Origin: Aromatoleum anaerobium
GTDB lineage: Bacteria; Pseudomonadota; Gammaproteobacteria; Burkholderiales; Rhodocyclaceae
Direction of reading: 5' to 3'
Assembly (NCBI RefSeq): GCF_012910705.2
Contig: NZ_WTVG02000039.1
Location: 434,001-498,000, forward strand
Length of the DNA stretch: 64,000 nucleotides
This document shows, in pieces, positions 19,260-63,982 of this stretch (positions within the stretch are counted from its first letter, which is position 1; every line of letters starts with the position of its first letter). The translations under genes and the position numbers were made by a program. Below the pieces are notes generated by a model, which saw only the letters and a program-made list of their open reading frames with translations, was not told the DNA's origin and searched no databases.

Positions 19260-20060
19260 TCAGGCCGCCGTGCGGATGCCCGGAGGGTTGCCCTTGATCG
19301 CGGTGGCGCGCAGGTCGTGCGGATCGAGGCGGCGGATCAGCGCGAGTTGGTCGGCGCTCGGGGACGTCGTTTCGCCCATGTCCGGCGCAGCGACGAGCGG
19401 GAAGCCGGTCTTCTCCTGCACTTCCGCGAAACTCACGCCAGGGTGCAGCGAACGCACGCGCACCGAGCGGCCGGGACCGTCGAAATCCATCACGCACAGG
19501 TCGGTGACGACGATGCGGATGTCCATCAGGTCGCGGCGCACGCCATCGTCCCAGCGCTCGGGCTTGAAGCCGACGCCGGACACCATATCGACTTCGCCTT
19601 CGACGAACACACGACGGCTGTGCGCGGGCACGAACAAGGAGTTGATGTGGTTGATGCTGTTGCCCGGCAAGCCGCGCACGCCGAGCATCGCCGACTTCGG
19701 CTTCGCGTAGTCGCCGACGCAGGACAGGTTGGTCTGGCCCCAGCGGTCGATCTGGGTCGGGCCGATCATCGCGTGGCGGCGGCCGCCCCACACGCAGTCG
19801 AACACCCGCTCGAAGGGCATGTAGCCCGAATAGCGCGGCTGGTAGTCGCCACGCGGGCCGAGCGGGATCGGCTCCTCGACGAGAAAGGCCTCGCTGTCGG
19901 TCATCAGCAGCCCCTCGCTGTGCGTCAGCTTCGCCAAGCTCGCGCCGAGACGCGGAATCACGCCGAGGCCGGACGCGAGCAGTTCGCCGTCGCCGCGCCA
20001 CGCTTCGGAGGCGGCGACGATCATCAGTTCGGCGAGGGTGAATTCAACTTTGTCGGTCAT
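19260..20060 (-). CDS. ipdB: IpdB, beta subunit of COCHEA-CoA hydrolase
   Basis: A 266-residue subunit of the class I CoA-transferase superfamily. Recognisable parts are FTLAELMIVAASEAWRGDGE, MIGPTQIDRWGQTNLSCVGD, GLPGNSINHINSLFVPAHS and the C-terminal HPGVSFAEVQEKTGFPLV. With IpdA it forms the hydrolase that opens the last carbocyclic ring of COCHEA-CoA in steroid degradation; in spite of the fold it is not a transferase. The gene follows ipdA by 12 bases. The assignment is strengthened by the presence of ipdC, ipdF, echA20 and fadA6 in the same operon. Confidence 0.88.
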   Translation of the reverse strand: MTDKVEFTLAELMIVAASEAWRGDGELLASGLGVIPRLGASLAKLTHSEGLLMTDSEAFLVEEPIPLGPRGDYQPRYSGYMPFERVFDCVWGGRRHAMIGPTQIDRWGQTNLSCVGDYAKPKSAMLGVRGLPGNSINHINSLFVPAHSRRVFVEGEVDMVSGVGFKPERWDDGVRRDLMDIRIVVTDLCVMDFDGPGRSVRVRSLHPGVSFAEVQEKTGFPLVAAPDMGETTSPSADQLALIRRLDPHDLRATAIKGNPPGIRTAA

Positions 20061-21923: not shown

Positions 21924-21943
21924 CATCGTCCGTTGAGACTAAA
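21924..21943. promoter_or_regulatory. Candidate operator, dyad copy
   Basis: CATCGTCCGTTGAGACTAAA. The first 19 bases are identical to the copy at 30086. It lies 72 bp upstream of the extradiol dioxygenase start and so would control the whole ipd operon. Confidence 0.65.
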
Positions 21944-28070: not shown

Positions 28071-28090
28071 CATCGTCCAAATGGACTATA
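28071..28090. promoter_or_regulatory. Candidate operator, dyad copy
   Basis: CATCGTCCAAATGGACTATA. The first twelve bases of the dyad are perfect, and GGAC of the right half is kept. It overlaps the last codon of the acyl-CoA ligase gene and lies 127 bp upstream of the small gene at 27944. Confidence 0.6.
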
Positions 28091-30085: not shown

Positions 30086-30105
30086 CATCGTCCGTTGAGA
30101 CTAAT
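30086..30105. promoter_or_regulatory. Candidate operator, dyad copy
   Basis: CATCGTCCGTTGAGACTAAT, sharing its first 19 bases with the copy at 21924. It lies 132 bp upstream of the ligase start on the ligase side of the divergent promoter region. Confidence 0.65.
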
Positions 30106-30146: not shown

Positions 30147-30166
30147 CATCGTCTGAATGGACGATG
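30147..30166. promoter_or_regulatory. Candidate operator, dyad copy (best conserved)
   Basis: CATCGTCTGAATGGACGATG, a nearly perfect palindrome (CATCGTC paired with GACGATG). It ends 54 bp before the folE2 ATG. Confidence 0.7.
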
Positions 30167-30220: not shown

Positions 30221-31009
30221 ATGAAACTCAACGACATCCCGGATGTGCAGTCCGCACACGACGCGCGCGCGATGCCGATCGACAAGGTCGGCATCCGCTC
30301 GATCCGCCACCCGGTGCGGGTGCGCGACCGCAGCGGCCACACGCAGGGTTCCGTCGCGGTCTTCGACATGTACGTGGGCCTGCCGCAGCACTTCAAGGGC
30401 ACGCACATGTCGCGCTTTGTCGAGATCCTCAACGGGCGCGAGCACGAGATCTCGGTCGAGGCGCTGGAGCCGATGGTGCGCGACATGATCGCCCGCCTCG
30501 AGGCCCGCACCGGGCATCTCGAAATGCGCTTTCCCTTCTTCGTGAACAAGGCCGCGCCGGTGTCCGGCGTCAGCAGCCTGATGGATTACGAGGTAACGCT
30601 CACCGGCACGGTCGGCGACGATGACCGCTTCCGGCTGATCCTGAGGGTGCTGGTGCCGGTGACCAGCCTGTGCCCGTGTTCGAAGAAGATCTCCGCCTAC
30701 GGGGCGCACAACCAGCGCTCGCACGTGACGGTCACGGCAACGTTGCGCGAGCACGTGTGGATCGAGGAGATCATCGAGCTCGTCGAACGCCTCGCCTCAT
30801 GCGAGCTCTACGGTCTCCTGAAGCGCGCGGACGAGAAGCTCGTCACCGAGCGCGCCTACGACAACCCGAAGTTCGTCGAGGATACCGTCCGCGACGTCGC
30901 AGGCGCGCTGGGAGCGGACCCGCGCATCGGCCACTTCGTTGTCGAGGCCGAGAACTTCGAATCCATCCACAACCATTCCGCCTACGCCCTGATCGAGCGC
31001 ACGGCCTGA
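30221..31009 (+). CDS. folE2: GTP cyclohydrolase I type B (FolE2)
   Basis: A 262-residue FolE2/YciA-type cyclohydrolase that opens GTP to 7,8-dihydroneopterin triphosphate, the first step of folate and other pterin synthesis, without strict zinc need. The diagnostic region [20 protein letters not shown] holds the metal-site Cys; N-terminal [12 protein letters not shown] and the C-terminal [10 protein letters not shown] are also typical. It is unusual to find it inside a catabolic locus. An excellent copy of the steroid operator lies just upstream, and the gene runs convergently into the TetR gene with stop codons 2 bases apart. Confidence 0.9.
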
Positions 31010-50180: not shown

Positions 50181-50200
50181 ATTCGTCTGAATGGACGATG
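50181..50200. promoter_or_regulatory. Candidate operator, dyad copy
   Basis: ATTCGTCTGAATGGACGATG. The last 15 bases (TCTGAATGGACGATG) are identical to the copy at 30147. It lies 77 bp upstream of the amidase start and 92 bp upstream of the divergent MFS gene, so it could control both. Confidence 0.65.
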
Positions 50201-50291: not shown

Positions 50292-51632
50292 GTGAGCACG
50301 AGCCCCGGCAGTCCGCATCGCGTGACCTTGCAGACGCACTACGCCCTGTTCATGCTGGCGACGATCTACGTCTTCAACTACATCGATCGTCTCGTGATCT
50401 CGATCCTGATCGAGCCGATCAAACTCGAGTTCGGCGTCTCCGACACCCAGATCGGCCTCCTGTCGGGCGTCGCGTTCGCGATCTTCTACACCGTGTTCGG
50501 CTTTCCCTTCGGCCGCCTGTCCGACCGCATCGGCCGCAAGCCGGTGATCGCGCTGGCGTGCATCGCGTGGAGCGCAATGACCATGCTGTGCGGCGTGGCG
50601 ACGAGCTTCGCGATGCTGCTGCTGTTCCGCATCGGCGTCGCGGTGGGCGAGGCTGGCGGCACGGCGCCGTCCGTGGCGATGGTGTCGGATCTCTATCCGG
50701 CGGACAAGCGTTCGCGCGCGCTGTCGGTGTTCCTGATGGGCCCCAGCCTGGGCGCGGTGTTCGGTCTCGGGCTCGGCGGCTGGATCGCGCAGACCTATGG
50801 CTGGCGCACGGCCTTCTTCGTGATCGGCGCGCCTGGGGTGCTGCTCGGCCTGCTGCTGCTGCTCACGGTGCGCACGCAACGCCCGCCTTCGGCTGCCGCG
50901 ACGAACGGCGGCGGTGTCGGCGAGAACTGGCGCCGGACACTGCGCGAACTCCTTGCGATGCCGGCCTTCCTGCTGATCGTTGCCGCCGGCACGCTGGCGG
51001 CCGTCATGGGCTATGCGATGGGCACCTGGAACCCGAGCTTCCTGATCCGCTCGCACGGGCTGAGCATGCAGGACGCCGGGCTGCTGGTCGGACTGGGCGG
51101 AGGCATCATGTCGACGATCGGCACCTTGCTTTGCGGGAACCTGACCGACCGTCTGGTGGCACGCGACCTTGGCTGGCAACTGGGCGTGCCCGCCATCGGC
51201 TGCCTGATCAGCGTACCGTTCGGGCTGGGGTTCTATCTGTGGCCGGCAGGCGTCGCCTTTCACGTCGGTTCGCTGGCGATCCCCGAAGCCTTCCTGTTCT
51301 ATCTCGGCTTCAGCTTCACGGCGACCTGGTGGGCAGTACCCTGCTTCGGCGCGATCAGCCATCTCTTCCCTCCGAATCGCCTTGGTCAGGCCACGGCGCT
51401 CTTCGTCATGGGCATGACGCTGTTCGGCGTCGGCCTCGGTCCGCTCGTCGTCGGCGGACTGAGCGACCTCTTCGCGGACCGCGTAGGCCACGAGGCGCTG
51501 CGCTACGCCTTGGCCAGCACCGTCGTGCTCTACGTTCTGACCGCGATCTGCCTGCTGAGCGCCCTGCCGCGGTATCGCCGCCGCCTGCTCGGCGGCACTG
51601 CGGTGATCGCCGGCGCCCCCGCTCGAGCCTGA
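50292..51632 (+). CDS. Major facilitator superfamily transporter
   Basis: A 446-residue inner-membrane transporter with twelve predicted helices. YVFNYIDRLVISILIEPIKL is the first helix, and the family loop between helices 2 and 3 reads GRLSDRIGRKPVI; GVAVGEAGGTAPSVAMVSDL is helix 4-5. The spinster-like MFS branch with this N-terminus often occurs in aromatic and steroid acid clusters, so uptake or export of a steroid acid is plausible. The GTG start has GGAG eight bases upstream. It opens the plus-strand operon that leads towards the F420 genes. Confidence 0.82.
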   Translation: MSTSPGSPHRVTLQTHYALFMLATIYVFNYIDRLVISILIEPIKLEFGVSDTQIGLLSGVAFAIFYTVFGFPFGRLSDRIGRKPVIALACIAWSAMTMLCGVATSFAMLLLFRIGVAVGEAGGTAPSVAMVSDLYPADKRSRALSVFLMGPSLGAVFGLGLGGWIAQTYGWRTAFFVIGAPGVLLGLLLLLTVRTQRPPSAAATNGGGVGENWRRTLRELLAMPAFLLIVAAGTLAAVMGYAMGTWNPSFLIRSHGLSMQDAGLLVGLGGGIMSTIGTLLCGNLTDRLVARDLGWQLGVPAIGCLISVPFGLGFYLWPAGVAFHVGSLAIPEAFLFYLGFSFTATWWAVPCFGAISHLFPPNRLGQATALFVMGMTLFGVGLGPLVVGGLSDLFADRVGHEALRYALASTVVLYVLTAICLLSALPRYRRRLLGGTAVIAGAPARA

Positions 51633-51682: not shown

Positions 51683-52513
51683 ATGACCTCGCCCGATCTG
51701 CCCATCCCCCTCGACCGGTTCGCCGATCTCGAGAACGGCCTGCGCCTGCATTACCTCGACGTCGGCAAGGGCCCGGTGGTGGTGTGGCTGCATGGCAGCG
51801 GCCCGGGCGCGAGCGGCTACAGCAACTTCAAGGGCAACTATCCGGCCTTCGCCGAGGCGGGCTTCCGCAACATCGTGCTCGACCTTCCCGGCTTCGGGCG
51901 CTCGGACAAGCCCTCCGACGTGCAGTACAACCTCGACTTCTTTGTCGCCTGCCTGCACGGCTTCCTCAAGACGATCGGCGTCGATCGCTGCACCCTGCTC
52001 GGCAATTCGCTCGGCGGCGCGATCGCGCTGGGACAGGCGCTCGCGCATCCGGAGACGGTCGAGCGCCTGATCCTGATGGCACCGGGCGGCGTCGAGGAGC
52101 GCGAGACCTATTTCCGCATGGAAGGCATCGTGCGCATGGTCGAGACCTTCGCGAAGGGGCCGATGGGGCCCGTGGAGATGCGTCATGTGATGAGCCTGCA
52201 AGTATTCGATCCGGCCCTGCTGGACGACACGATCATCAATGAACGCTCGGCCATCGCACCGTCGCAGCCCGCCAACCTGTTCTCGACCATGATGGTGCCG
52301 AACATGACGGAACGGCTGCACGAGATCGCCGTGCCGATCTTCGGTTTCTGGGGGACGGACGACAAGTTCAACCCGCATACGGGCGCGCTGAAGGTGCTTG
52401 CGAACGCCCGCCACGCGCGCATGATCCTGCTCAACCAGTGCGGCCATTGGGTCCAGGTTGAGCACCGCGACCTCTTCAACCGCAGTTGCATCGATTTTCT
52501 GACCAAGGGGTAA
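51683..52513 (+). CDS. Alpha/beta hydrolase, HsaD/MhpC-like C-C hydrolase
   Basis: A 276-residue alpha/beta hydrolase. The oxyanion region LHGSGPGASGYSNFKGN, nucleophile elbow LLGNSLGGAIALG, acid GTDDKFNPHTGAL and the catalytic His in QCGHWVQVEHRDLFN match meta-cleavage product hydrolases such as HsaD, TesD and MhpC. HsaD splits 4,9-DSHA after HsaC has opened ring A. Since the HsaC-like gene lies 30 kb away, this may serve that step or a related C-C or ester cleavage. Position after the MFS gene indicates co-transcription. Confidence 0.75.
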   Translation: MTSPDLPIPLDRFADLENGLRLHYLDVGKGPVVVWLHGSGPGASGYSNFKGNYPAFAEAGFRNIVLDLPGFGRSDKPSDVQYNLDFFVACLHGFLKTIGVDRCTLLGNSLGGAIALGQALAHPETVERLILMAPGGVEERETYFRMEGIVRMVETFAKGPMGPVEMRHVMSLQVFDPALLDDTIINERSAIAPSQPANLFSTMMVPNMTERLHEIAVPIFGFWGTDDKFNPHTGALKVLANARHARMILLNQCGHWVQVEHRDLFNRSCIDFLTKG

Positions 52514-52521
52514 GCCGAGTC

Positions 52522-54654
52522 ATGGGAGATTTCGACAACCTGCTGCAACCGGGCCGCATCGGCCGCATGCAGCTCAGGAACCGCATCGTGATGGCCCCGA
52601 TGGGGTCCAACTTCGCCGAATCCGACGGTACTTGCGGCGAACGCATCCAGGCCTACTATGAGGCGCGCGCCGCCGGCGGGGCGGGCCTGATCACCATGGG
52701 GGTGGGCGCCATCGCCTACCCGCACGGCACGGCGGAGCCCTACCAGGTCGGCCTGTCGGACGACAAATTCATCCCCGGACTGATGGGCATCGTCGAGCGC
52801 GTACACCAGCACGGCGCGAAGATCGCGATCCAGCTCCAGCACGCCGGCAAGACCGCGGTGCGCGACCTCGCCGAGGGGCGCGAGCTGTGGGTGCCGTCGA
52901 TGCCGCCGGCGCTGAAGACCGACATGTTCGCCGCGCTGACGCAGGAGGAGATGGGCGCCTTCATCAGCTCGTCGAAGAGCCGCGAGAAGGCCGGCGTGAA
53001 GATTCGCGTGATGGACAAGGCGGACATCGCGCAGATGATCGAGTGGTTCGCCGCGGCGGCCGATCGCGCGCGGCGGGCCGGATTCGACGGTGTCGAGATC
53101 CACGCCGCCCACACCTACATCATCGCCGGCTTCCTGTCCGGCTACTTCAACAAGCGCGACGACGAGTACGGCGGCTCGATCGAGAATCGCGGCCGCTTCC
53201 TGCGCGAGGTGATCGCCGCGGTGCGCGCCCGCGTCGGTGCCGACTACCCGGTGTGGCTGCGGCTCGATGCCTGCGAGCTGCGCATGGACGGCGGCATCAC
53301 GCTCGACGAGGCCAAGGTCTTCGCGAAGATGGCCGAGGACGCCGGCTGCGATGCCGTGAGCGTGTCCGCGTACGCCAATACCAGCACCGGCGTCGCCTTC
53401 ACCGAGGCGCCGCTGGTGCAGCAGAAGGCCGGCTTCCTGCACTGGGCCGCCGAGATCAAGGAAGGGCTGAAGATCCCGGTGATCGCCGTCGGCCGCCTGG
53501 AGCCGGAGGTGGCGGACAACGCGGTCGCGGCCGGCCAGTGTGACTTCGTCGCGATGGCGCGCAAGCTGCTCGCCGACCCGGAGCTGCCGAAGAAACTCGC
53601 CGAGGACCGCCCCGAGGACATCCGCCCCTGCATCTACTGCTACGCCTGCGTGAGCCAGATCTTCATCAACGAGCGCGTCAAGTGCGCGGTCAATCCGCTG
53701 ACCGGCCACGAGGCCGAGATCCGTCTGGCGCCGGCTGCCAAACCCGGCCACGTGGTCGTGGTCGGCGGCGGTCCGGGTGGGATGGAGGCCGCGCGCGCGG
53801 CGGCGCTGCGGGGCCACAAGGTCACGCTGCTCGAACGCAGCGGGCGGCTGGGCGGCACGCTGTTCTTCGCCGCGCTCGCCTATGCGGAAAACGGCGCCCT
53901 GCTTGACTATCTCGTCACGCAGATGCGCAAGCTCGATGTCGATGTGCGGCTCAACACCGCGGCGACGCCGGAGCTGATCAAGTCGCTGGGGGCGACCTCG
54001 GTGATCGTGGCGAGCGGCGCCGAGCGCAACGCCCCGCCGATCCCCGGTGCGGAACTCGACCACGTGTGGTCGGGCGACGAGCTGAGGCGTCTGATGACCG
54101 GCGACCGCGCCGACGAGATCGCCAAGCGCAAGCTCTCGCTCGCCCAGCGCGCGCTAATGAAGGCCGGCAGCCTGGTTGGCGCCACCGACAGCACCGATGC
54201 GATCCAGAACCTGTCGCGGGTATGGATGCCGCTCGGCAAGAAGGTGGCGATCATCGGCGGCGGCCTCGTGGGGGTCGAACTGGCCGAGTTCCTCGTCGAC
54301 CGCGGCCGCGAGGTCGTGGTGCTGGAGGAAGGCCCCAGCCTCGGACGCGAGCTCTCCATCGTGCGCCGCTGGCGCGTGCTCGACACCCTGCGCCAGCACG
54401 GGGTCGTGCTGCACACGAAGGCGAAGGTCGAAACGATCGACAAGAAGAAACTGACCTGGACCGACGCCGAAGGCAATCGCCACGAACTCGCGGCCGAGTC
54501 GGTGGTGCTGGCCGTAGGTGCGCGCCCGGACGACAGCCTCGCGCGGTCGCTCGAAGCGGCCGGCATGCCGGTGAGCGCCGTCGGCGATGGCGCGCAGCTC
54601 GGCTACATCGAGGGCGCGGTCAAGTCGGGCATGCTCGCCGGGCTGGCCATCTGA
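52522..54654 (+). CDS. Old yellow enzyme-type Fe-S flavin reductase (BaiCD/dienoyl-CoA reductase-like)
   Basis: A 710-residue enzyme with three parts: an FMN TIM barrel (1-350; NRIVMAPMGSNFAESDG, AIQLQHAGKTAV, GVEIHAAHTYIIAGFLSGYF), a 4Fe-4S site (CIYCYACVSQ, with Cys-x2-Cys-x2-Cys and a fourth Cys 11 residues later, the spacing of trimethylamine dehydrogenase rather than FadH) and an NAD(P)/FAD domain (VVVVGGGPGGMEAARAAALR, KVAIIGGGLVGVELAEFLVD). Relatives reduce C=C bonds conjugated to a carbonyl, including 3-oxo-delta4 bile acids (BaiCD). A steroid enone reductase role is a reasonable inference. It overlaps no neighbour and follows the hydrolase by 8 bases. Confidence 0.8.
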   Translation: MGDFDNLLQPGRIGRMQLRNRIVMAPMGSNFAESDGTCGERIQAYYEARAAGGAGLITMGVGAIAYPHGTAEPYQVGLSDDKFIPGLMGIVERVHQHGAKIAIQLQHAGKTAVRDLAEGRELWVPSMPPALKTDMFAALTQEEMGAFISSSKSREKAGVKIRVMDKADIAQMIEWFAAAADRARRAGFDGVEIHAAHTYIIAGFLSGYFNKRDDEYGGSIENRGRFLREVIAAVRARVGADYPVWLRLDACELRMDGGITLDEAKVFAKMAEDAGCDAVSVSAYANTSTGVAFTEAPLVQQKAGFLHWAAEIKEGLKIPVIAVGRLEPEVADNAVAAGQCDFVAMARKLLADPELPKKLAEDRPEDIRPCIYCYACVSQIFINERVKCAVNPLTGHEAEIRLAPAAKPGHVVVVGGGPGGMEAARAAALRGHKVTLLERSGRLGGTLFFAALAYAENGALLDYLVTQMRKLDVDVRLNTAATPELIKSLGATSVIVASGAERNAPPIPGAELDHVWSGDELRRLMTGDRADEIAKRKLSLAQRALMKAGSLVGATDSTDAIQNLSRVWMPLGKKVAIIGGGLVGVELAEFLVDRGREVVVLEEGPSLGRELSIVRRWRVLDTLRQHGVVLHTKAKVETIDKKKLTWTDAEGNRHELAAESVVLAVGARPDDSLARSLEAAGMPVSAVGDGAQLGYIEGAVKSGMLAGLAI

Positions 54655-54719: not shown

Positions 54720-55175
54720 ATGAGAACCAACGCGCTGGACATCTGCAACCTTCTCTACCGCTACGCCGAGGCCATCGACGAAGGTCGCCTCGAGGACGCC
54801 GCAGCAATGTTCCGCCATGCGCGGATCGAGACGGGCACGGCGACGCTCGACGCCACGGGCCTGCTCGCGCTGTGGCGCCGCATCCTGATCATCCATCCCT
54901 GCGGCACGCCGCGCACGCGACACCTGATCACCAATCCCATCCTCGACATCGACGAGGCCGCCGGCACCGCGCGGGCGCGCTCGTGCTACACGGTGATGCA
55001 GGCCACTGAGGGCTTCCCGCTGCAGGTGATCGCCAGCGGCCGATACTTCGACCGCTTCGCCCGCATCGACGGGGCCTGGCAATTCGTCGAACGCGACTAC
55101 CGTCATCTCGATTTCACTGGCGACCTGAGCCGGCACCTGCAAATCGGCAGCCTGCGCCCGCCGCGGGGCGGCTGA
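54720..55175 (+). CDS. SnoaL/NTF2-like protein
   Basis: A 151-residue single-domain protein with a cone-shaped alpha+beta barrel pattern: ALDICNLLYRYAEAIDEGRL, AAAMFRHARIETG, TRHLITNPILDIDEAAGTAR and a C-terminal GAWQFVERDYRHLDFTGDL. The fold includes delta5-3-ketosteroid isomerases, scytalone dehydratase and polyketide cyclases; the isomerase catalytic Tyr/Asp pair is not clear here, so the reaction is open. It ends the operon that starts with the MFS gene and precedes the operator of the F420 oxidoreductase. Confidence 0.7.
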   Translation: MRTNALDICNLLYRYAEAIDEGRLEDAAAMFRHARIETGTATLDATGLLALWRRILIIHPCGTPRTRHLITNPILDIDEAAGTARARSCYTVMQATEGFPLQVIASGRYFDRFARIDGAWQFVERDYRHLDFTGDLSRHLQIGSLRPPRGG

Positions 55176-55191: not shown

Positions 55192-55211
55192 GCTCGTCCG
55201 ATCGGACGATG
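55192..55211. promoter_or_regulatory. Candidate operator, dyad copy upstream of the F420 genes
   Basis: GCTCGTCCGATCGGACGATG. The inner 16 bases TCGTCCGATCGGACGA form a perfect palindrome. It ends 89 bp before the ATG of the F420 oxidoreductase-like gene, just after the SnoaL gene's stop. Confidence 0.68.
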
Positions 55212-55300
55212 CCGTCCTGCCCCCCCTCTCTTAGCGTGGCAGGCATAGGGATCGGCCTGCTCACGCGGGCCTCCGCCGACCTCAAAGGAGAGACGGACAG

Positions 55301-55982
55301 ATGGTCATCGACAGTACAAGCACGATCGGCGTGATCGGCGGCACGGGCAAGCTGGGCGCGGCGCTCGCCCGTCGTTGGGTGAAGGCCGGCCTGCACGTGG
55401 CGATCGGTTCGCGCGATGCCGGCAAGGCCCGGGAAGCCGCCTCCGCGCTGTGCGCCGAGACCGGCGCAACGGTCGAGTCGGGACGCAATGCCGAGGTAGC
55501 CGCCCTCGCCGACCTGATCGTCGTCAGCGTGCCCTTCGCGTCGCAGGTCGCGACGCTCGAAGAGATCCGCGACGCCGTCGCCGGCAAGATCGTGATCGAC
55601 ACCACCGTCCCGCTGATTCCGCCCAAGGTGATGCGCGTGCAGATGCCCCCGGAGGGCTGTGCCGCGCTGCGCGCGCAAGCAGGTGCTGGGAGACGCCACC
55701 CGCGTGGTGTCCGCCTTCCACAATGTCGCGGCCCACAAGCTCGCCACCGACGAGACCGTCGCCTGCGACGTGCTCGTCTTCGGCGACGACAAGGATGCAC
55801 GCACCCGGGCGGTCGCACTCGCCGAGGCCGCGGGCCTGCGCGGCCTGCACGGCGGCGCGCTAGCGAATTCGGCGGCGGCCGAGGCGATGACCTCGGTGCT
55901 GATCTTCCTGAATCGCAATTACAGCGTCGACGGCGCCGGCATTCGCATCACCGGCGAACTCGACATGACTGCCCATCCTTGA
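55301..55982 (+). pseudogene. F420:NADPH oxidoreductase-like gene with one frameshift
   Basis: The N-terminal half shows the Fno/NpdG nucleotide-binding pattern TIGVIGGTGKLGAALARRWV with HVAIGSRDAGKARE and LIVVSVPFASQV. The frame breaks near 55672 in a GCGCGCGC run; dropping one base continues with VLGDATRVVSAFHNVAAHKL, ANSAAAEAMTSVLIFLNRNY and GIRITGEL, giving a normal 226 residues. Fno transfers hydride between F420H2 and NADP+. The indel is in a simple repeat and may be a sequencing error. The operator at 55192 lies upstream, and cofE begins 11 bases after the stop. Confidence 0.75.
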
Positions 55983-55992
55983 GGCAAGCGTG

Positions 55993-56760
55993 ATGCGTCG
56001 CCGACTCTGCTTCGAGGCGCTTCCCGGGATTCCGGAGGTCCGGTCGGGCGACGCGCTGCACGAGCTCATCGGGCAAGCGCTGGATACGCACGCGATCGCG
56101 CTCGAGCCCGACACCATCGTCGTCGTCGCGCAGAAAATCGTCTCGAAGGCCGAAGGACGCTTCGCCTGGCTGGACGAGGTCAGACCCTCGAACAAGGCCC
56201 TCGAACTCGCCCGCATCACCGGCAAGGACGCGCGTCTGGTCGAGCTGACGCTGTCGGAGTCGACCGACGTGCTGCGTGCGGTGCCGGGCGTGCTGATCGT
56301 GCGCCACCGCCTCGGCTACGTCATGGCCAACGCCGGCATCGACCTGTCCAACGTTCCCGGCGAGGCCGGGCGCGAACGCGCGCTGCTGCTGCCGCTCGAC
56401 CCCGACAGATCCGCCGCGGCGCTGCGCGAGGGGCTCCGCGCTCGCACCGGGAAGACCGTCGGCGTGATCGTCAGCGACAGTTTTGGCCGGCCCTGGCGCA
56501 ACGGCGTCGTGAACGTCGCCCTCGGTTCAGCCGGCGTTCCGGCCCTGATCGACCGGCGCGGCGACCCCGACCGCCACGGCCGCACGCTGCAGATCACCCA
56601 AACCGCCTTTGCCGACGCCATCGCCGCGGGGGCCGCGATCGTGATGGGGGAAGGCAGCGAGGGGATGCCGGTGGTGCTGGCGAGCGGGTTCATGCCCACC
56701 GCGCCGGAAGTCGATTGCAAGGCGCTGCTGCGCCCGCTTGAGGCGGATCTTTTTCGATGA
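55993..56760 (+). CDS. cofE: Coenzyme F420-0:L-glutamate ligase
   Basis: A 255-residue CofE enzyme that adds glutamates to F420-0 with GTP. Recognisable segments are [60 protein letters not shown] and [20 protein letters not shown]. It lacks the C-terminal nitroreductase domain present in mycobacterial FbiB. ATG 55993 has GAGG eight bases upstream; the GTG at 55990 is an alternative. The stop overlaps the cofD start as ATGA. Confidence 0.9.
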
Positions 56761-57707
56761 ACAATCGGCACATCCTCGCGCTGAGCGGCGGCGTGGGCGG
56801 CGCGAAGCTCGCCGACGGCCTGCTGCATGCACTCGACGATGCGCGGCTCACCGTGGTGGTGAACACCGGCGACGACTTCACGCACCTCGGCCTGCACATC
56901 TCGCCCGACGTCGATACCGCGCTCTACACACTCGCCGGGGTGGCCAATCCCGAAACCGGCTGGGGGCGGCGCGACGAGACCTGGAGCTTCATGGACGCGC
57001 TGGCCCGGCTCGGCGGCGAGACCTGGTTCCGCCTCGGCGACGGCGACCTCGCCACCCACGTCGAGCGCACCCGCCGGCTCGCTTCCGGGGAAACGCTCTC
57101 CGCGATCACGGCCGACTTCGCGCGCCGCCTGGGCATCCGCGCCGACATCGTGCCGATGTCCGATCAGGCGCTACGCACGCGCGTTCATACCGACGAAGGC
57201 GTCTTTGACTTCCAGGACTACTTCGTCCGCCACCAGTGCCGTCCGGTGACGCGCTCGATCGAGTTCAGCCTCGCGCCCGACGCGGCCCCTGCGCCCGCCG
57301 TGCTGACGGCTCTCGCCGACGACGCGCTTGACGCGATCGTGATCTGCCCCTCCAACCCCTACCTCAGCATCGCGCCCCTCCTCGCCGTCCCGGGGCTGCG
57401 CGCCCGTCTGCAGGCGGCCGGGGTGCCGATCGTCGCCGTCTCCCCGCTGGTCGGCGGCACGGCCGTGAAGGGGCCGACCGCGAAGATCATGGCCGAACTC
57501 GGCGTGCCGGTCTGCGCGGACGAGATCGTGCGCTACTACGGCAACCTGCTCGACGGCTTCGTCCTCGACGTTCGCGACGCGCATCTGCAGGCGCGCATCG
57601 CGCTGCCCGTGCATGTCACCGACACCCTGATGCGGACGCCGCAGGATCGCGTCCGCGTCGCGCGCGAAACCCTGGCGTTCGCCTCCCGCCTCACGTCCCG
57701 ACGCTGA
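56757..57707 (+). CDS. cofD: 2-phospho-L-lactate transferase family (F420-0 synthase)
   Basis: A 316-residue CofD/FbiA protein. The phosphate-binding start [71 protein letters not shown] and [20 protein letters not shown] are family signatures. It joins FO with the guanylylated phosphoacid made by CofC to give F420-0 or its relative. It is translationally coupled to cofE by a 4-base overlap. Confidence 0.92.
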
Positions 57708-57914
57708 AGTCCTTTCGTCGCCCCGCGAAGGAATCGTCACGCCCCAAAAACCGAGCTTTCTCATGTTTGCCCGCAAAGCATAAATATAAATCAACCAAAC
57801 TACTGTTTCATATGACTTTTTTAAGCCATTAAACTTTCTGAATAACAGTCCAAAGCGAGTAGCCGGCGCCATATCCGAGGTGTTTCAATTTTCCCAAGGA
57901 AGCGCACACAGACC
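57708..57914. promoter_or_regulatory. AT-rich promoter-like island before cofC
   Basis: From about 57745 to 57860 the base composition falls far below the surrounding two thirds G+C, with runs such as ATAAATATAAATC and CTTTTTTAAGCCATTAAAC. No CATCGTCC dyad and no clear gene is present. It probably holds a separate promoter for cofC and cofGH; exact -35/-10 boxes are not certain. Confidence 0.4.
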
Positions 57915-58019
57915 ATGCAGACACGACGCCACGACCTTCACTTCGCCCGCCGGACCCAGCGCACCGCCCCCCAGCGGGCGGCCGACGCGATGGCCCGCGC
58001 GGCGGGAGCGCCGCGATGA
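57915..58019 (+). CDS. 34-codon leader ORF coupled to cofC
   Basis: ATG 57915 opens a 34-residue Arg/Ala-rich reading frame (starting MQTRRHDLHFARRTQRT) that ends in TGA overlapping the cofC ATG (ATGA at 58016). A GGA lies upstream at a usable distance. The peptide has no recognisable domain. It may serve only translational coupling or be chance; the exact ATGA overlap is the argument for it. Confidence 0.35.
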   Translation: MQTRRHDLHFARRTQRTAPQRAADAMARAAGAPR

Positions 58020-58648
58020 GCTGCTGGGCCCTCGTACCGCTCAAGGCGCGCCGCTTCGGCAAGAGCCGTCTTGCGGGCGTGCTGGACGACGCGGAGCGGG
58101 CGAGCCTCGTGCAGTCGATGCTCGAGCGCGTTCTCGCCGCGCTGGCCGATGCGCGCGAGATCGACCGGATCGCCGTCGTGTGCTGCGAACCCGAGCGCGT
58201 TCCGCCAGCCATCCTGAGCCTGCCGGACAGCGGCCAGGGCCTGAACGACGCCCTCGCGGCCGGCGCCTCGCGCCTGTGGGCCCGGGGTGCCGACGAACTG
58301 CTCGTGATCCACGCCGACCTGCCGCTGGTCCGCGCCGCCGACATCGACTGTTTCGTGCGTTGCGGGCGGTCCCAGGGCATGGCGCTGGCTGCCGACCGCC
58401 ACGGCTCCGGCACCAATGCCCTCTTCGTCGCGGGGGTCACGGATTTCAGTTTTCAATTCGGCGCGCACAGCCTGTCCCGCCACCTCGCCGCCGCTCACGC
58501 CCGCGGCATCGCCCCCGCGCTGCCCGAGCTGGATTCGCTCGCGTTCGACATCGACACGCCCGCCGATCTCGCCTGCCTGCCGCCCGCAGCGCTCGCGCCC
58601 ACCCCCCACCTCCGCCGGAGTCCGACGCCATGCCTGATCACCTGTTAA
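58016..58648 (+). CDS. cofC: Phosphoacid guanylyltransferase of F420 synthesis
   Basis: A 210-residue CofC/FbiD enzyme. ALVPLKARRFGKSRLAGVLD is the GTP-binding start, with QGLNDALAAGASRLWARGAD, LLVIHADLPLVRAADIDCFV and HGSGTNALFVAG in order, and a C-terminal LAFDIDTPADLACLP. It activates 2-phospholactate, phosphoenolpyruvate or 3-phosphoglycerate with GTP; which one is used cannot be read by eye. GGGAG stands upstream of ATG 58016. Its 3' end overlaps cofGH by 19 bases. Confidence 0.9.
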   Translation: MSCWALVPLKARRFGKSRLAGVLDDAERASLVQSMLERVLAALADAREIDRIAVVCCEPERVPPAILSLPDSGQGLNDALAAGASRLWARGADELLVIHADLPLVRAADIDCFVRCGRSQGMALAADRHGSGTNALFVAGVTDFSFQFGAHSLSRHLAAAHARGIAPALPELDSLAFDIDTPADLACLPPAALAPTPHLRRSPTPCLITC

Positions 58649-61080
58649 GCCATCTCGCGAGCGCCCGTGCAGGCTTGCGCCTGCCCGGCGACGAAGTCCG
58701 CCAGCTTTCCCTGCATGCCCCGCTCGACGCGCTGCTCGACACGGCGGAAGCCCTGACCCTCGCGGGCCATGGCCCCCGCGTCGGCTATTCGCGCAAGGTT
58801 TTCATTCCCCTCACCCGGCTGTGCCGCAACACCTGCGGCTACTGCACCTTCGCGACCACGCCCCGGCGCGTGCCCAGTGCGTATCTCGACGCCGAGGAGA
58901 TCCTCGCGATTGCGCGTGCGGGCGCCGAGGCGGGCTGCCACGAGGCCTTGTTCACCCTCGGCGAGCGCCCCGAGTCGCGCTACCAGGCAGCGCGCGACGC
59001 CCTCGCCGTGCTCGGACACACCTCGACGATCGAATACCTCGCGGAAATGGCCGCGCTCGTCCATCGCGAGACCGGCCTGCTCCCGCACCTGAACCCCGGC
59101 ACCATGAGCGCCGACGAGATCGCGCTGCTGCGGCCGGTGGCCGCGTCGATGGGCATCATGCTCGAATCGGCCTCTGCCCGCCTGTGCGAACCCGGCGGAC
59201 CGCACTGGAAGTGCGTCGACAAGCACCCGGACGCCCGCCTCGCGACCTTGCGCCGCGCCGGCGAGCTCGCCGTGCCGATGACCACCGGCATCCTGATCGG
59301 CATCGGTGAAACACGCGACGAACGGATCGACTCCCTGCTCGCCCTGCGGGAATTGCACGAGCAGCACGGCCATCTGCAGGAGATCATCGTGCAGAACTTC
59401 CGCGCCAAGCCCGGCACCGTGATGGCGGGCGCGCAGGAACCCGGGGTCGATGATCAGGCCTGGACGATCGCGATGACCCGCCTCATCTTCGGCGCGCACA
59501 TGTCGATCCAGGCGCCTCCCAACCTGCGCCCCGGCGAACTCGAACCGCTCCTGCGCGCCGGCATCAACGACTGGGGCGGCATCTCGCCGGTCACGCTCGA
59601 CCATGTGAATCCGGAGGCGGCGTGGCCCCAGATCGACGCCCTGGCGGCCGAGACCGCCCGTCACGGACGCCACCTGCGTCAGCGCCTGCCGCTGATCCCG
59701 TCCTACGTGCGCGAGCTGGCGCGCTGGACCGCACCTGCGGTCGGCAGTGCCGTGCTGCGCCGCGCGGATGCGAGCGGATACGCGCGGCCCGACGACTGGC
59801 TGGCCGGCAGCGGTAAACCCCCCTCCGCGGCGGCCTTGCAGGGCTTCGCCCGGACATCCGGTCGCGAACCCTCGCATGCCATCCGCACCGTGCTCGACAA
59901 GGCGGCCGCCGGCGAGGCGCTGAACGAGGCCGAGATCACGCGTCTGTTCGACGCCGACGGCGATGACCTGCACGCCGTCCTCGCGGCAGCCGACGCGCTG
60001 CGCCGCCAGACGGTCGGCGACACCGTGACCTACGTGCGCAACTGCAACATCAACTACACCAACATCTGCCAGCACCGCTGCGGCTTCTGCGCGTTTGCCA
60101 AGAGCCATGCCGCTTCGACGCTGCGCGGCCCGGCCTACCGGCTCGAAGCCGACCAGGTCGCGGCGCGCGCCGAGGAGGCCTGGCTGCGCGGCGCGACCGA
60201 GGTGTGCATGCAGGGCGGCATCCACCCGCACTACGACGGGGAGACCTACCTGTCGCTGCTTGCGGCCGTGCGGCGCGCCACCCCGCAGATGCACATCCAC
60301 GCCTTTTCGCCGCTGGAGATCCGCCATGGTGCCGCGACGCTAGGCCTGTCGCTGCGCGACTACCTCCTGCGTCTGCGCGAGGCCGGACTGCGCACGCTGC
60401 CCGGCACCGCGGCGGAAATCCTCGACGACGAGGTCCGCACCATCATCTGTCCAGACAAGCTCGACACCGCGCAATGGCTGGAAGTGATGCAGACCGCGCA
60501 CGAACTCGGCATCCGCAGCACCGCGACGATCATGTTCGGCCACGTCGACGCGCCGAAGCACTGGGCGCGCCACCTCCTCGCGATCCGCGGGCTACAGGCG
60601 AGGACCGGCGGCTTCACCGAGTTCGTGCCCCTGCCCTTCGTGCATATGGAGTCCCCGCTGTGGCACAAGGGCCGCGCCCGCTCCGGCCCGACGCTGCGCG
60701 AGGCAGTGCTGATGCACGCCGTCGCCCGCCTCGCACTCCATCCGCTGATCCCGAACATCCAGACCTCGTGGGTGAAGATGGGCGCGGAAGGCGCCGCGCT
60801 CTGCCTGCAGGCTGGCGCGAACGATCTGGGCGGCACGCTGATGTATGAGTCGATCACCCGCGCAGCCGGCGGAGCGAACGGACAGCTGATGGAAACCGAC
60901 GACCTGCGCGCGATTGCGACGCGCTGCCAACGGCCGCTGCGGCAGCGATCCACCCTGTACGAAGCGATCGGGCAGGAAAACGATTGCGACGGCGAGGCCC
61001 CGAAGGCAGCCGACGCGGGCGACGGCACGGGGCCGACGTCACCACCCCGGCCGGTACTGCGTCTCCGCGCACCGGCTTGA
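58630..61080 (+). CDS. fbiC: FO synthase, fused CofG-CofH (FbiC)
   Basis: An 816-residue double radical SAM enzyme making the deazaflavin FO from tyrosine and 5-amino-6-ribitylaminouracil. The CofG half (about 1-370) has its cluster in RLCRNTCGYCTF (Cys65, 69, 72); the CofH half (about 420-790) in NICQHRCGFCAF (Cys480, 484, 487). Supporting motifs are HLNPGTMSADEIALLRPV and IHAFSPLEIRHGAATLG. The fused form is typical of bacteria such as actinobacteria, while archaea have separate proteins. The last 30 residues are a low-complexity tail. ATG 58630 overlaps the cofC end. Confidence 0.93.
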   Translation: MPDHLLSHLASARAGLRLPGDEVRQLSLHAPLDALLDTAEALTLAGHGPRVGYSRKVFIPLTRLCRNTCGYCTFATTPRRVPSAYLDAEEILAIARAGAEAGCHEALFTLGERPESRYQAARDALAVLGHTSTIEYLAEMAALVHRETGLLPHLNPGTMSADEIALLRPVAASMGIMLESASARLCEPGGPHWKCVDKHPDARLATLRRAGELAVPMTTGILIGIGETRDERIDSLLALRELHEQHGHLQEIIVQNFRAKPGTVMAGAQEPGVDDQAWTIAMTRLIFGAHMSIQAPPNLRPGELEPLLRAGINDWGGISPVTLDHVNPEAAWPQIDALAAETARHGRHLRQRLPLIPSYVRELARWTAPAVGSAVLRRADASGYARPDDWLAGSGKPPSAAALQGFARTSGREPSHAIRTVLDKAAAGEALNEAEITRLFDADGDDLHAVLAAADALRRQTVGDTVTYVRNCNINYTNICQHRCGFCAFAKSHAASTLRGPAYRLEADQVAARAEEAWLRGATEVCMQGGIHPHYDGETYLSLLAAVRRATPQMHIHAFSPLEIRHGAATLGLSLRDYLLRLREAGLRTLPGTAAEILDDEVRTIICPDKLDTAQWLEVMQTAHELGIRSTATIMFGHVDAPKHWARHLLAIRGLQARTGGFTEFVPLPFVHMESPLWHKGRARSGPTLREAVLMHAVARLALHPLIPNIQTSWVKMGAEGAALCLQAGANDLGGTLMYESITRAAGGANGQLMETDDLRAIATRCQRPLRQRSTLYEAIGQENDCDGEAPKAADAGDGTGPTSPPRPVLRLRAPA

Positions 61081-61173: not shown

Positions 61174-62073
61174 ATGACACTCACCCACCTGCAACGGCTC
61201 GAAGCCGAGAGCATCCACATCATGCGGGAGGTCGTCGCCGAGGCCGACAACCCCGTGATGCTCTACTCGATCGGCAAGGACAGCGCGGTGATGCTGCATC
61301 TCGCGATGAAGGCCTTCCACCCGGCGCGCCCGCCCTTTCCGCTGCTGCACGTCGACACGCGCTGGAAGTTCCGCGACATGTACCGGTTCCGCGACGAGAT
61401 GGTCACCAAGCTCGGCCTGGACCTGATCGTGCACATCAACCCCGAAGGCATGGAAAAGGACATCAATCCCTTCACCCACGGTTCCGCGATCCACACCGAC
61501 ATCATGAAGACCGAGGGTCTCAAGCAGGCGCTCGACAAATACGGCTTTGACACAGCCTTCGGCGGCGCGCGCCGGGACGAGGAGAAGTCGCGCGCCAAGG
61601 AACGCATCTTCTCCTTCCGCACCGCCCAGCACCGCTGGGACCCCAAGAGCCAGCGCCCCGAGCTGTGGAAGCTCTACAACGCCCGCAAGCACAAGGGCGA
61701 GTCGATGCGGGTGTTCCCGCTTTCGAACTGGACCGAGCTCGACATCTGGCAGTACATCCATCTCGAAAACATCCCCATCGTGCCGCTCTACTACTCGGCC
61801 GAGCGCCCCGTGGTCGAGCGCGACGGCGCGATGATCATGGTCGACGACGAGCGCATGCCTCTGAAGCCGGGCGAAGTGCCGATGATGAAGAAGGTGCGCT
61901 TCCGCACGCTGGGCTGCTACCCGCTCACCGGTGCCGTCGAATCCGGGGCCGACACGCTGCCGGCGATCATCCAGGAAATGCTGCTCACGAAGACCTCCGA
62001 ACGTCAGGGCCGCGTCATCGACCACGATTCGGCCGCCTCCATGGAACGCAAGAAGCAGGAAGGATATTTCTGA
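61174..62073 (+). CDS. cysD: Sulfate adenylyltransferase small subunit
   Basis: A 299-residue ATP sulfurylase subunit of the PP-loop type: [20 protein letters not shown] carries the SGGKDS-like loop, followed by [40 protein letters not shown] and [20 protein letters not shown]. With CysN it makes adenosine 5'-phosphosulfate from ATP and sulfate in assimilation. It begins about 90 bp after the FO synthase and pairs with cysNC; a link to steroid or F420 metabolism is not evident beyond proximity. Confidence 0.93.
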
Positions 62074-62074
62074 C

Positions 62075-63982
62075 ATGGCACATATCTCCGACCTCATCGC
62101 CACCGACATCGAGCAGTACCTGAAGGCGCACGAAACGAAGAGCCTGCTGCGCTTCATCACCTGCGGCAGCGTCGACGACGGCAAGAGCACGCTGATCGGG
62201 CGCCTCCTCTACGAATCGAAGATGCTCTTCGAGGACCAGCTCGCCGCCGTCGAAGCCGACTCCAAGAAGTACGGCACGCAGGGCGATGCAATCGACTTCG
62301 CGCTGCTCGTGGACGGCCTCGCCGCCGAGCGCGAGCAGGGCATCACGATCGACGTCGCCTATCGCTTCTTCTCGACGGACAAGCGCAAGTTCATCGTCGC
62401 CGACACGCCGGGCCACGAGCAATACACGCGCAACATGGTCACCGGCGCCTCGACCGCCGACGCCGCCATCCTGATGGTCGACGCGCGCAAGGGCATCCTC
62501 ACCCAGACCCGGCGCCACAGCTACCTGATCAGTCTGCTGGGCATCCGCCACGTCGTGGTGGCCGTCAACAAGATGGATCTGGTCGATTATTCGGAGAAGG
62601 TCTACCGCCAGATCGTCCAGGACTACCGCGTGTTCGCCGCCCAGCTCGGGCTCGCCGACGTGACCTTCATCCCGATGTCGGCGTTCAAGGGCGACAACAT
62701 CACGGGCCCGAGCGAGGCGATGCCTTGGTATCGCGGCACCACGCTGATGGGCTACCTCGAAACGGTGGAGGTGGACGACACCCGCATGCAGCGCACTCCC
62801 TTCCGCCTGCCGGTGCAGTGGGTGAACCGCCCGAACCTCGACTTCCGCGGCTTTGCCGGCACGGTCGCCAGCGGCGTCATCGCGGCGGGAGATCGCATCC
62901 GCATACAGCCCTCCGGCAAGGAGAGCACCGTCGCGCGCATCGTCACCCGTGACGGCGACCTGGAGCGCGCGGTTGCGGGGCAGTCGGTCACGCTGACCCT
63001 CGCCGACGAGGTCGACATTTCGCGCGGCGACGTGATCTCCACGGTGGAGGCGCCGGCCGAGGTGGCCGACCAGTTCGAATGCACGATCACCTGGATGCAC
63101 GACGAGCCCATGCTCGCCGGTCGCCCCTACCTGCTGAAGATCGGCGCAAAGACGGTCACCGCGACCGTCACAGACATCAAGTATCAGGTGAACGTGAATA
63201 CGCTCGAACACGTCGCAGCGAAGACGCTCGAGCTCAACGCGATCGGCGTGTGCAACCTCAGCCTCGACCGTCCCGTCGCCTTCGACCCCCATCGAGACAA
63301 CCGCGACACCGGCGGCTTCATCCTGATCGACCGGCTGTCGAACAGCACCGTCGGCGCGGGCCTGCTGCACTTCGCGCTGCGCCGCGCGCACAACATCCAC
63401 CTGCAGCACATCGACGTGGACAAGGCTGCGCGCGCGGCGCTCAAGCATCAGAAGAGCTGCATGCTGTGGTTCACCGGTCTGTCCGGCGCGGGCAAGTCCT
63501 CGATCGCCAACCTGGTCGAAAAGAAGTTGCACGCGCTCGGCCACCATACCTACCTGCTCGACGGCGACAACGTGCGCCACGGCCTGAACAAGGACCTGGG
63601 TTTCACCGATGCCGACCGCGTCGAGAACATCCGCCGCGTGGCCGAAGTCGCCAAACTGATGGTCGATGCCGGACTGGTCGTGCTGACGGCCTTCATCTCC
63701 CCGTTCCGCTCCGAGCGGCAGATGGCACGCGCCTTGGTCGACGAAGGCGAATTCGTCGAGATCTTCGTCGACACGCCGCTGGAGGTCGCCGAGCAGCGCG
63801 ACGTCAAGGGCCTGTACAAGAAAGCCCGGCGCGGCGAGCTGAAGAACTTCACCGGCATCGACTCGCCTTACGAGGCCCCCGAGAACGCCGAGATCCGACT
63901 TGAAACGACGCGCCTGTCGCTGGAGGCGGCCGCCGAGGCCGTGATCGCCGCGCTGCGCCAGCGCGGAATCATCTCCAACTGA
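62075..63982 (+). CDS. cysN: Bifunctional CysN-CysC: sulfate adenylyltransferase GTPase and APS kinase
   Basis: A 635-residue fusion. Residues about 20-440 are the EF-Tu-like GTPase CysN, with the P-loop GSVDDGKST (31-39), [17 protein letters not shown] and NKMD. Residues about 455-635 are APS kinase CysC with P-loop GLSGAGKSS (about 469), [17 protein letters not shown] and [20 protein letters not shown]. It drives APS formation and then makes PAPS. cysD ends one base before its ATG. CysNC fusions are common in proteobacteria. About 18 bases remain to the window end. Confidence 0.93.

Follow-up and report, generated by a model that had tools for sequence, protein, structure and literature searches.

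The region of Aromatoleum anaerobium that holds steroid catabolism genes also carries genes for the synthesis of the rare redox coenzyme F420, which raises the question of whether this cofactor has a part in steroid breakdown and, if so, which enzymes use it. The window analyzed here is a stretch of 64,000 nucleotides (C13:434001-498000, where C13 is our name for the contig) from a genome of 4.56 Mb in 40 contigs. It contains an F420 biosynthesis cluster at 55301-61080 that we call cof cluster 1 (positions without a prefix are those of the window). We analyzed 264 kb that include the window (C13:374001-638000), with genes called by a codon-score script. Two sets of cof genes located behind a motif of steroid genes, together with three enzymes encoded nearby from the luciferase-like family, whose members often use F420, point to an F420-dependent step in steroid degradation. 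From the sequence, we consider it likely that a proteobacterial steroid regulon includes the supply of reduced F420 (F420H2), which luciferase-like hydride-transfer enzymes (LLHTs) would then consume.

The two F420 biosynthesis clusters

In cof cluster 1, npdG, cofE, cofD, cofC and cofGH all lie in the same direction on the forward strand. Identities of the Cof proteins were judged by the NCBIfam equivalog cut-offs, which all four pass. These are CofE, an F420-0:gamma-glutamyl ligase (55993-56760; TIGR01916, 252.9 bits with a cut-off of 180.65), CofD, a 2-phospho-L-lactate transferase (56757-57707; TIGR01819, 290.9 bits, cut-off 257.45), CofC, a guanylyltransferase (58016-58648; TIGR03552, 142 bits, cut-off 105), and CofGH, a bifunctional FO synthase (58630-61080; NF006687, 1103.8 bits, cut-off 1018) that is also above the cut-offs of TIGR03550 and TIGR03551. 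The cluster thus has the fused CofG and CofH as well as the CofC, CofD and CofE that characterize bacterial F420 clusters. The original prediction described a complete set following an Fno/NpdG-like gene. This holds for the four cof genes, but npdG is split between two frames. The 5' part (55301-55675) matches positions 3-126 of TIGR01915 with 96 bits and PF03807 with 65.7 bits, and the 3' part (55683-55982) matches positions 131-220 of TIGR01915 through 55683-55979 with 79.5 bits, so that the cut-off of 149.8 bits is not reached in one frame. Alignment of the DNA with four relatives showed that a one-base insertion separates the two frames. On either side of the break, variation relative to the locus L019 is highest at third codon positions, and npdG is a single open frame in all 19 relative loci examined, covering at least residues 17-220 of 225. 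The extra base and the single frame in these 19 loci indicate that the split seen in this assembly arose either by a recent frameshift or through misassembly.

A second npdG-cofE-cofD-cofC-cofGH cluster is located at C13:592050-597138, its start 103 kb after the first, and has 73-74% DNA identity to cluster 1 in the two longest aligned pieces. Its npdG is whole (TIGR01915, 182.1 bits), and its cofE and cofC are above their cut-offs. Its cofD ends after profile position 187 of 301. The CofGH of this cluster (714 aa from a start set by the script) scores 1005.5 bits, slightly below the cut-off, and its open frame extends upstream. Cluster 1 is without a whole npdG and cluster 2 without a whole cofD, so that together they hold one unbroken copy of every gene. 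The broken npdG and the truncated cofD could be taken to mean that the clusters are remnants and that the strain is losing its F420 synthesis, as could the six relative loci where npdG, cofC and cofGH occur without cofE and cofD. We regard this as extremely improbable given that the two clusters are complementary, that misassembly may account for the break in npdG, and that cofD is above its cut-off in 20 of 20 genomes that were chosen, not at random, through 80 named loci.

The order npdG-cofC-cofGH, with cofE and cofD not found in the locus, is a recurrent short F420 cluster (L028:8501-12418, L029:8652-12415, L030:8576-12337, L033:69-3818, L034:8640-12430 and L085:63-3739). In a CofGH tree of 59 rows made with a quick method, L029, L033, L034 and L085 group with cluster 2, and L028 and L030 are placed elsewhere. 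The two copies from A. anaerobium share a proteobacterial branch but belong to different clades within it, both of them supported, and the protein from Aromatoleum aromaticum EbN1 is distant. The copy from the window groups with those of Azoarcus and Thauera, and one node further out are Pseudomonas saliphila and a gammaproteobacterial metagenome-assembled genome. Because of this placement, cofGH seems to move between classes.

A palindromic operator shared with steroid genes

Proteins encoded on the contig match 3-oxosteroid 1-dehydrogenase (7p18, 718 bits) and the 3-ketosteroid 9alpha-hydroxylase KshA (4qdc, 183 bits). The window itself contains ipdB, which encodes a subunit of a steroid C/D-ring CoA-transferase-like hydrolase (19260-20060, reverse strand; PDB 6co6, 180.7 bits) and served as our steroid marker in co-occurrence counts. 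The PDB entry is titled as a probable CoA-transferase beta subunit, and we take it to be IpdB.

Upstream of npdG in cluster 1 is a perfect 16-bp palindrome, TCGTCCGATCGGACGA, at 55194-55209 (no strand assigned to this or the following sites). This exact sequence match bears out the claim that a palindromic core of the steroid operator precedes the gene. The 14-bp core, CGTCCGATCGGACG, is found nowhere else in the 4.56-Mb genome. We seeded a 14-bp matrix with six look-alike sites and then refined it with the top-scoring intergenic ones. With a threshold of 12 bits it found 21 intergenic versus 2 genic sites in the 264 kb, of which 14% is intergenic, a split that is partly built in because of the refinement on intergenic sites. 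For a held-out test, a 20-bp matrix was made from 13 other sites with both cof sites excluded. The cof1 site scored 21.1 bits (rank 16 in the 264 kb) and the cof2 site, which lies ahead of npdG in cluster 2 and after the LLHT-C operon, scored 22.2 bits (rank 14). Both are higher than the control maxima, which were 17.7 bits in 20 first-order Markov sequences and 20.8 bits in 20 plain letter shuffles. The consensus pattern occurs at 25 places in the genome. Of these, 15 fall within C13:389-601 kb, a stretch that makes up 4.6% of the genome (binomial 2e-14); since the operator model comes from this very stretch, the clustering is in part circular.

Sites of this family are found elsewhere in the window at 21927-21940 (16.3 bits) and 28074-28087 (18.7 bits), in the gap between an acyl-CoA synthetase gene and folE2 at 30089-30102 (16.3 bits) and 30150-30163 (18.3 bits), and at 50184-50197 (18.3 bits; kept in L019, L020 and L023) before the gene row that leads up to cluster 1. 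Outside the window, an operator at C13:408234 is 123 bases before the KshA-like gene. When seven cof1 promoters (the window and L019-L024) are aligned, their longest invariant run falls in the operator; all six relatives keep the palindrome, one of them with a single G/A change. The cof2 site has one differing base among four promoters. Scanning for promoters gave no sigma-70-like site at the operator. The operator is common to steroid genes and conserved in relatives, as membership in a regulon predicts, with three Pseudomonas loci as the exception. We infer that it is functional and that a regulator, probably of the TetR type, binds CATCGTCCRATYGGACGATG-like operators before the steroid genes and both cof clusters. 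Cluster 1 would then be one of two F420 clusters in the steroid-catabolic regulon of an Aromatoleum/Azoarcus-type bacterium.

These promoters also bear on whether the cof genes are a horizontally acquired passenger that came with the steroid genes and has no role in the pathway. The apparent transfer between classes in the CofGH tree would fit such a history, as would the frameshifted npdG and shortened cofD. However, the operator is the most conserved promoter block, which is unexpected for a passenger, cof genes and ipdB occur together in five genera, and an unbroken copy of each gene remains across the two clusters. We therefore think it very unlikely that the cof genes are a passenger.

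Candidate F420-using enzymes and the adjoining sulfur genes

If F420 is made under control of this regulon, some enzyme should use it. The original prediction found no luciferase-like or PPOx-type enzyme in the window and placed the user elsewhere or among unrecognised proteins. There is indeed no match to PF00296 or PF01243 in the window, and the user is probably encoded outside it, though close by. The genome contains three PF00296 matches (E up to 0.001), all between the two cof clusters (C13:504-590 kb). LLHT-A (C13:504246-505283), 6.2 kb beyond the end of the window, scores 343.2 bits with TIGR03617 (cut-off 278.15). LLHT-B (C13:530960-531883) and LLHT-C (C13:588579-589448) score 203.2 and 186.1 bits with TIGR03619 (cut-off 166.9). 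All three candidates pass the cut-offs of F420-type NCBIfam subfamilies. The gene for LLHT-C adjoins those for two acyl-CoA dehydrogenases and an enoyl-CoA hydratase, and LLHT-B is encoded near a CoA-transferase. PPOx enzymes were rejected as F420 users since none of the four PF01243 proteins passes an F420-type cut-off (best scores 26.8 versus 84.9 and 32.9 versus 79.05 bits); PF04075 and similar FDOR families were not searched.

NpdG reduces F420 with NADPH, and F420-dependent luciferase-like monooxygenase (LLM) family enzymes move a hydride between F420 and a carbonyl, alcohol or imine. The NpdG that is intact in cluster 2 would reduce F420 with NADPH, and the F420H2 would be used by the luciferase-like enzymes of the same stretch, above all LLHT-A, to reduce (or oxidise) a steroid-derived intermediate. 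Gene identities, operator sites, synteny and co-occurrence are read from the sequences, and the use of F420 by these enzymes, the direction of the reaction and the steroid or steroid-derived nature of the substrate are predictions.

It could instead be that the luciferase-like proteins use flavin mononucleotide (FMN) and that F420 is needed by some other enzyme. The best PDB match of both LLHT-B and LLHT-C is an FMN-dependent dimethylsulfone monooxygenase (71.2 and 53.2 bits), which speaks for FMN and against F420 as the cofactor of these two proteins. We nonetheless hold this to be quite unlikely. In addition to the F420-type cut-offs passed by all three proteins, seven of the eight PDB matches of LLHT-A are methylenetetrahydromethanopterin reductases or an F420 alcohol dehydrogenase, four of them with F420 in the name, and the second PDB match of LLHT-C is an F420-dependent hydroxymycolic acid dehydrogenase (50.5 bits). 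Moreover, TIGR03617 is found with cofD in 11 of 12 and 3 of 3 genomes from the family and order samples described below.

LLHT-A is part of a conserved gene block that, judging by synteny in relatives, begins with cysD and extends beyond the window. This gene for a sulfate adenylyltransferase subunit (61174-62073, forward strand; NF009214, 563.3 bits) starts 93 bases after cofGH and is followed by cysNC, which encodes sulfate adenylyltransferase subunit 1/adenylyl-sulfate kinase (62075-63982, forward strand; NF004035, 1073.9 bits). The full order after cofGH is cysD, cysNC, cysQ, a TetR gene, a transposase-like open reading frame (ORF), a Sulfotransfer_3 gene, a gene for a DUF1214-like protein (22.8 bits, below the cut-off of 25), a short-chain dehydrogenase/reductase (SDR) gene and LLHT-A. 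The sulfotransferase, DUF1214-like and LLHT-A genes accompany a cof cluster in 9 of 19 loci (L019, L021-L027 and L066). These come from Azoarcus, Thauera, Pseudomonas and two bins and span beta- and gammaproteobacteria; the second half of the block is inverted in L027 and L066. L020 ends before the sulfotransferase part, and the other nine loci carry other cof clusters. We recognized the transposase-like ORF by eye at C13:500049-500708 (L007:2049-2708), between the TetR and sulfotransferase genes, which almost touch in L019, L021 and L023.

Between cofGH and LLHT-A we saw no reductase gene for 3'-phosphoadenosine 5'-phosphosulfate (PAPS), which would fit the use of PAPS for sulfotransfer. A second cysQ/cysD/cysNC set (C13:538995-543718; L009:995-5718) has an operator in its divergent promoter (C13:539792, 22.05 bits) that was not among the 13 matrix sites. 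A search of plasmids with the sulfotransferase returned 2 records, both with less than 30% identity. A speculative reading, to which we assign a small probability, joins F420H2 and PAPS in a single module for steroid modification: the TIGR03617 enzyme would use F420H2 to reduce a steroid ketone, the neighboring sulfotransferase would sulfate the hydroxyl so formed, and departure of the sulfate would drive elimination. Such joint chemistry would be the reason why the regulon has two supplies of each cofactor (two cof clusters and two cysD-cysNC-cysQ sets). The synteny and the two operator-linked PAPS sets are what suggest it, and it would add PAPS-dependent sulfotransfer as a possible partner chemistry.

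Distribution among relatives and comparison with known systems

We examined co-occurrence of the markers in 199 genomes from the family of the window, with one search per marker and kinship ignored in the tests. Among these, cofD was found in 19, ipdB in 14 and TIGR03617 in 12. Genomes with ipdB had cofD in 12 of 14 cases versus 7 of 185 for those without (Fisher p 7e-13), so the cof genes are not absent from related steroid degraders, and TIGR03617 was in 12 of 14 versus 0 of 185 (p 2e-17). The association of TIGR03617 with cofD was also strong (p 2e-12), the one genome without cofD being 81% complete. When counted by genus (68 genera), cofD was in 5 of 7 with ipdB versus 4 of 61 (p 2e-4) and TIGR03617 in 6 of 7 versus 0 of 61 (p 6e-8). 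In a sample of 200 genomes from the order, ipdB was in 2, one of them (G093) without cofD, and TIGR03617 in 3, all with cofD and two without ipdB; because ipdB is in so few, the order-wide co-occurrence is too sparse to use. The 20 genomes chosen through named loci include 17 with ipdB. The proposed coupling of cof genes to steroid catabolism is thus supported as far as the common operator and the co-occurrence within the family are concerned.

Several observations count against an F420-dependent step under steroid control. The 14-bp operator match at C13:401432 scored just 9.3 in the 20-bp test, the Pseudomonas loci L026, L027 and L066 have no operator of at least 14 bits before npdG, and the one in L025 is weak (14.7 bits). 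Besides G093, the family genomes G326 (81% complete) and G374 have ipdB without cofD, so that steroid breakdown does not always require F420. The seven family genomes with cofD but not ipdB, and G386, which has ipdB and cofD without TIGR03617 and is apparently Aromatoleum diolicum given its identical cofD coordinates, also depart from the pattern, and the genomes compared are related, a kinship for which the tests are uncorrected.

F420 might serve another isoprenoid or xenobiotic, such as a terpenoid, that is degraded by the same catabolic stretch, and the operator might be common to these genes since the regulon is broad. By these scans, none of the genes noted near LLHT-B and LLHT-C is specific to steroids, two of the three order-sample genomes with TIGR03617 have no ipdB match, and similar F420-LLM clusters occur on sphingomonad plasmids in stretches without an annotated steroid-specific gene. 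On the other hand, all 12 family genomes with TIGR03617 carry ipdB, and in Pseudomonas saliphila ipdA and three further homologues of window genes lie beside the cof block. In addition, directly upstream of the cof1 operator is the operator-led row of forward-strand genes that includes a meta-cleavage hydrolase. The row encodes a major facilitator superfamily transporter (50292-51632; PF07690, 181 bits), the BphD/HsaD-like meta-cleavage-product hydrolase (51683-52513; PDB 2og1, 167 bits, and 7zjt, 142.9 bits), a flavoprotein of the old yellow enzyme/2,4-dienoyl-CoA reductase type (52522-54654; PF00724, 248.6 bits) and a SnoaL-like protein (54720-55175; PF13577, 60.9 bits). By PDB score the hydrolase is nearer to BphD than to HsaD, and it is below the cut-off of 400 for HsaD (NF045632, 188.1 bits); the flavoprotein is below the cut-off of 825 for BaiCD (457.4 bits). 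We judge a non-steroid substrate to be unlikely and favor F420H2 supply to LLHTs acting in steroid degradation.

The original prediction knew of no such coupling in a proteobacterium. Its novelty is smaller than this, since part of it is anticipated by cof genes of Sterolibacterium and by the mycobacterial gene Rv3520c. A figure legend lists cofC, cofD and cofE of the cholesterol degrader Sterolibacterium denitrificans (SEDNCHOL_10763-10772) among its cholesterol genes (PMC6678751). Listed beside them are genes for an acyl-CoA synthetase, a steroid delta-isomerase, an enoyl-CoA hydratase, an SDR and acyl-CoA dehydrogenases, and in the available text of this review F420 is mentioned once, in that legend. 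Beyond this listing, A. anaerobium has a second cluster, an operator common to cof and steroid genes, and LLHT partners, and the genes co-occur within the family. In mycobacteria, a KstR motif is printed at Rv3520c/Rv3521 (PMC1995591), and Rv3520c is named an F420-dependent oxidoreductase of cholesterol degradation (PMC12855090). Both systems thus place an annotated F420-dependent oxidoreductase at a steroid repressor motif. However, the window operator is unlike the printed KstR motifs, and no F420 biosynthesis gene is named among the regulon genes in the available parts of PMC1995591, PMC12855090 and PMC6429209. LLHT-A was considered as a member of the Rv3520c subfamily (TIGR03559) and rejected at 72.2 bits versus a cut-off of 335, which LLHT-B and LLHT-C do not reach either (32.1 and 43.6 bits).

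Proteobacterial F420 clusters likewise contain cofE, cofD, cofC, cofGH and Fno/NpdG, and NADPH has been proposed to be the main or sole reductant of F420 in Betaproteobacteria (PMC8498797). The main text of that review does not contain the terms steroid, cholesterol or sterol and, as far as available, gives no catabolic F420 user enzyme in Proteobacteria. The term F420 is absent from the main texts of four papers on steroid degraders (PMC11061730, PMC6016249, PMC5790920 and PMC9980454), and among the open-licence papers listed by literature searches, titles and abstract openings showed none on F420 in proteobacterial steroid degradation. If correct, the link to steroid breakdown would give proteobacterial F420 a role and candidate enzymes. 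It would be testable in non-pathogenic strains such as Thauera butanivorans, which has an unbroken cluster with one cofD as well as ipdB and LLHT-A and comes from a genus named among steroid degraders (PMC5790920, PMC9980454), and may shed light on the F420-type oxidoreductase in the cholesterol regulon of mycobacteria.

Two plasmids resemble the window in carrying cof genes in catabolic surroundings and differ from cluster 1 in gene order and flanks. On plasmid 2 of A. aromaticum EbN1, the cof genes are beside a PPOx-family gene, a possible F420 user, and the CofGH is on a distant branch. On pSA2 of Novosphingobium resinovorum they are beside F420-type LLM genes, with sulfotransferase, SDR and DUF1214 genes also present, but its sulfotransferase is not among the matches to that of the A. 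anaerobium block at E 1e-20. The stretch of this alphaproteobacterial plasmid at 17910-37250 (L105) holds a short cluster in the order cofH-npdG-cofC without cofE and cofD, two F420-type LLM genes and a ring-hydroxylating oxygenase gene in addition to the sulfotransferase, SDR and DUF1214 genes.

Two further observations concern the steroid region itself. The folE2-type GTP cyclohydrolase gene (30221-31006; PF02649, 319 bits) is behind two operators that it shares with the divergent acyl-CoA synthetase gene, and is an unexpected pterin gene in a steroid regulon. Upstream of the window, the ORFs at C13:418192-420003 and C13:431387-433198 each encode 603 aa and have identical first 40 residues and coding score, likely as the result of a recent duplication.

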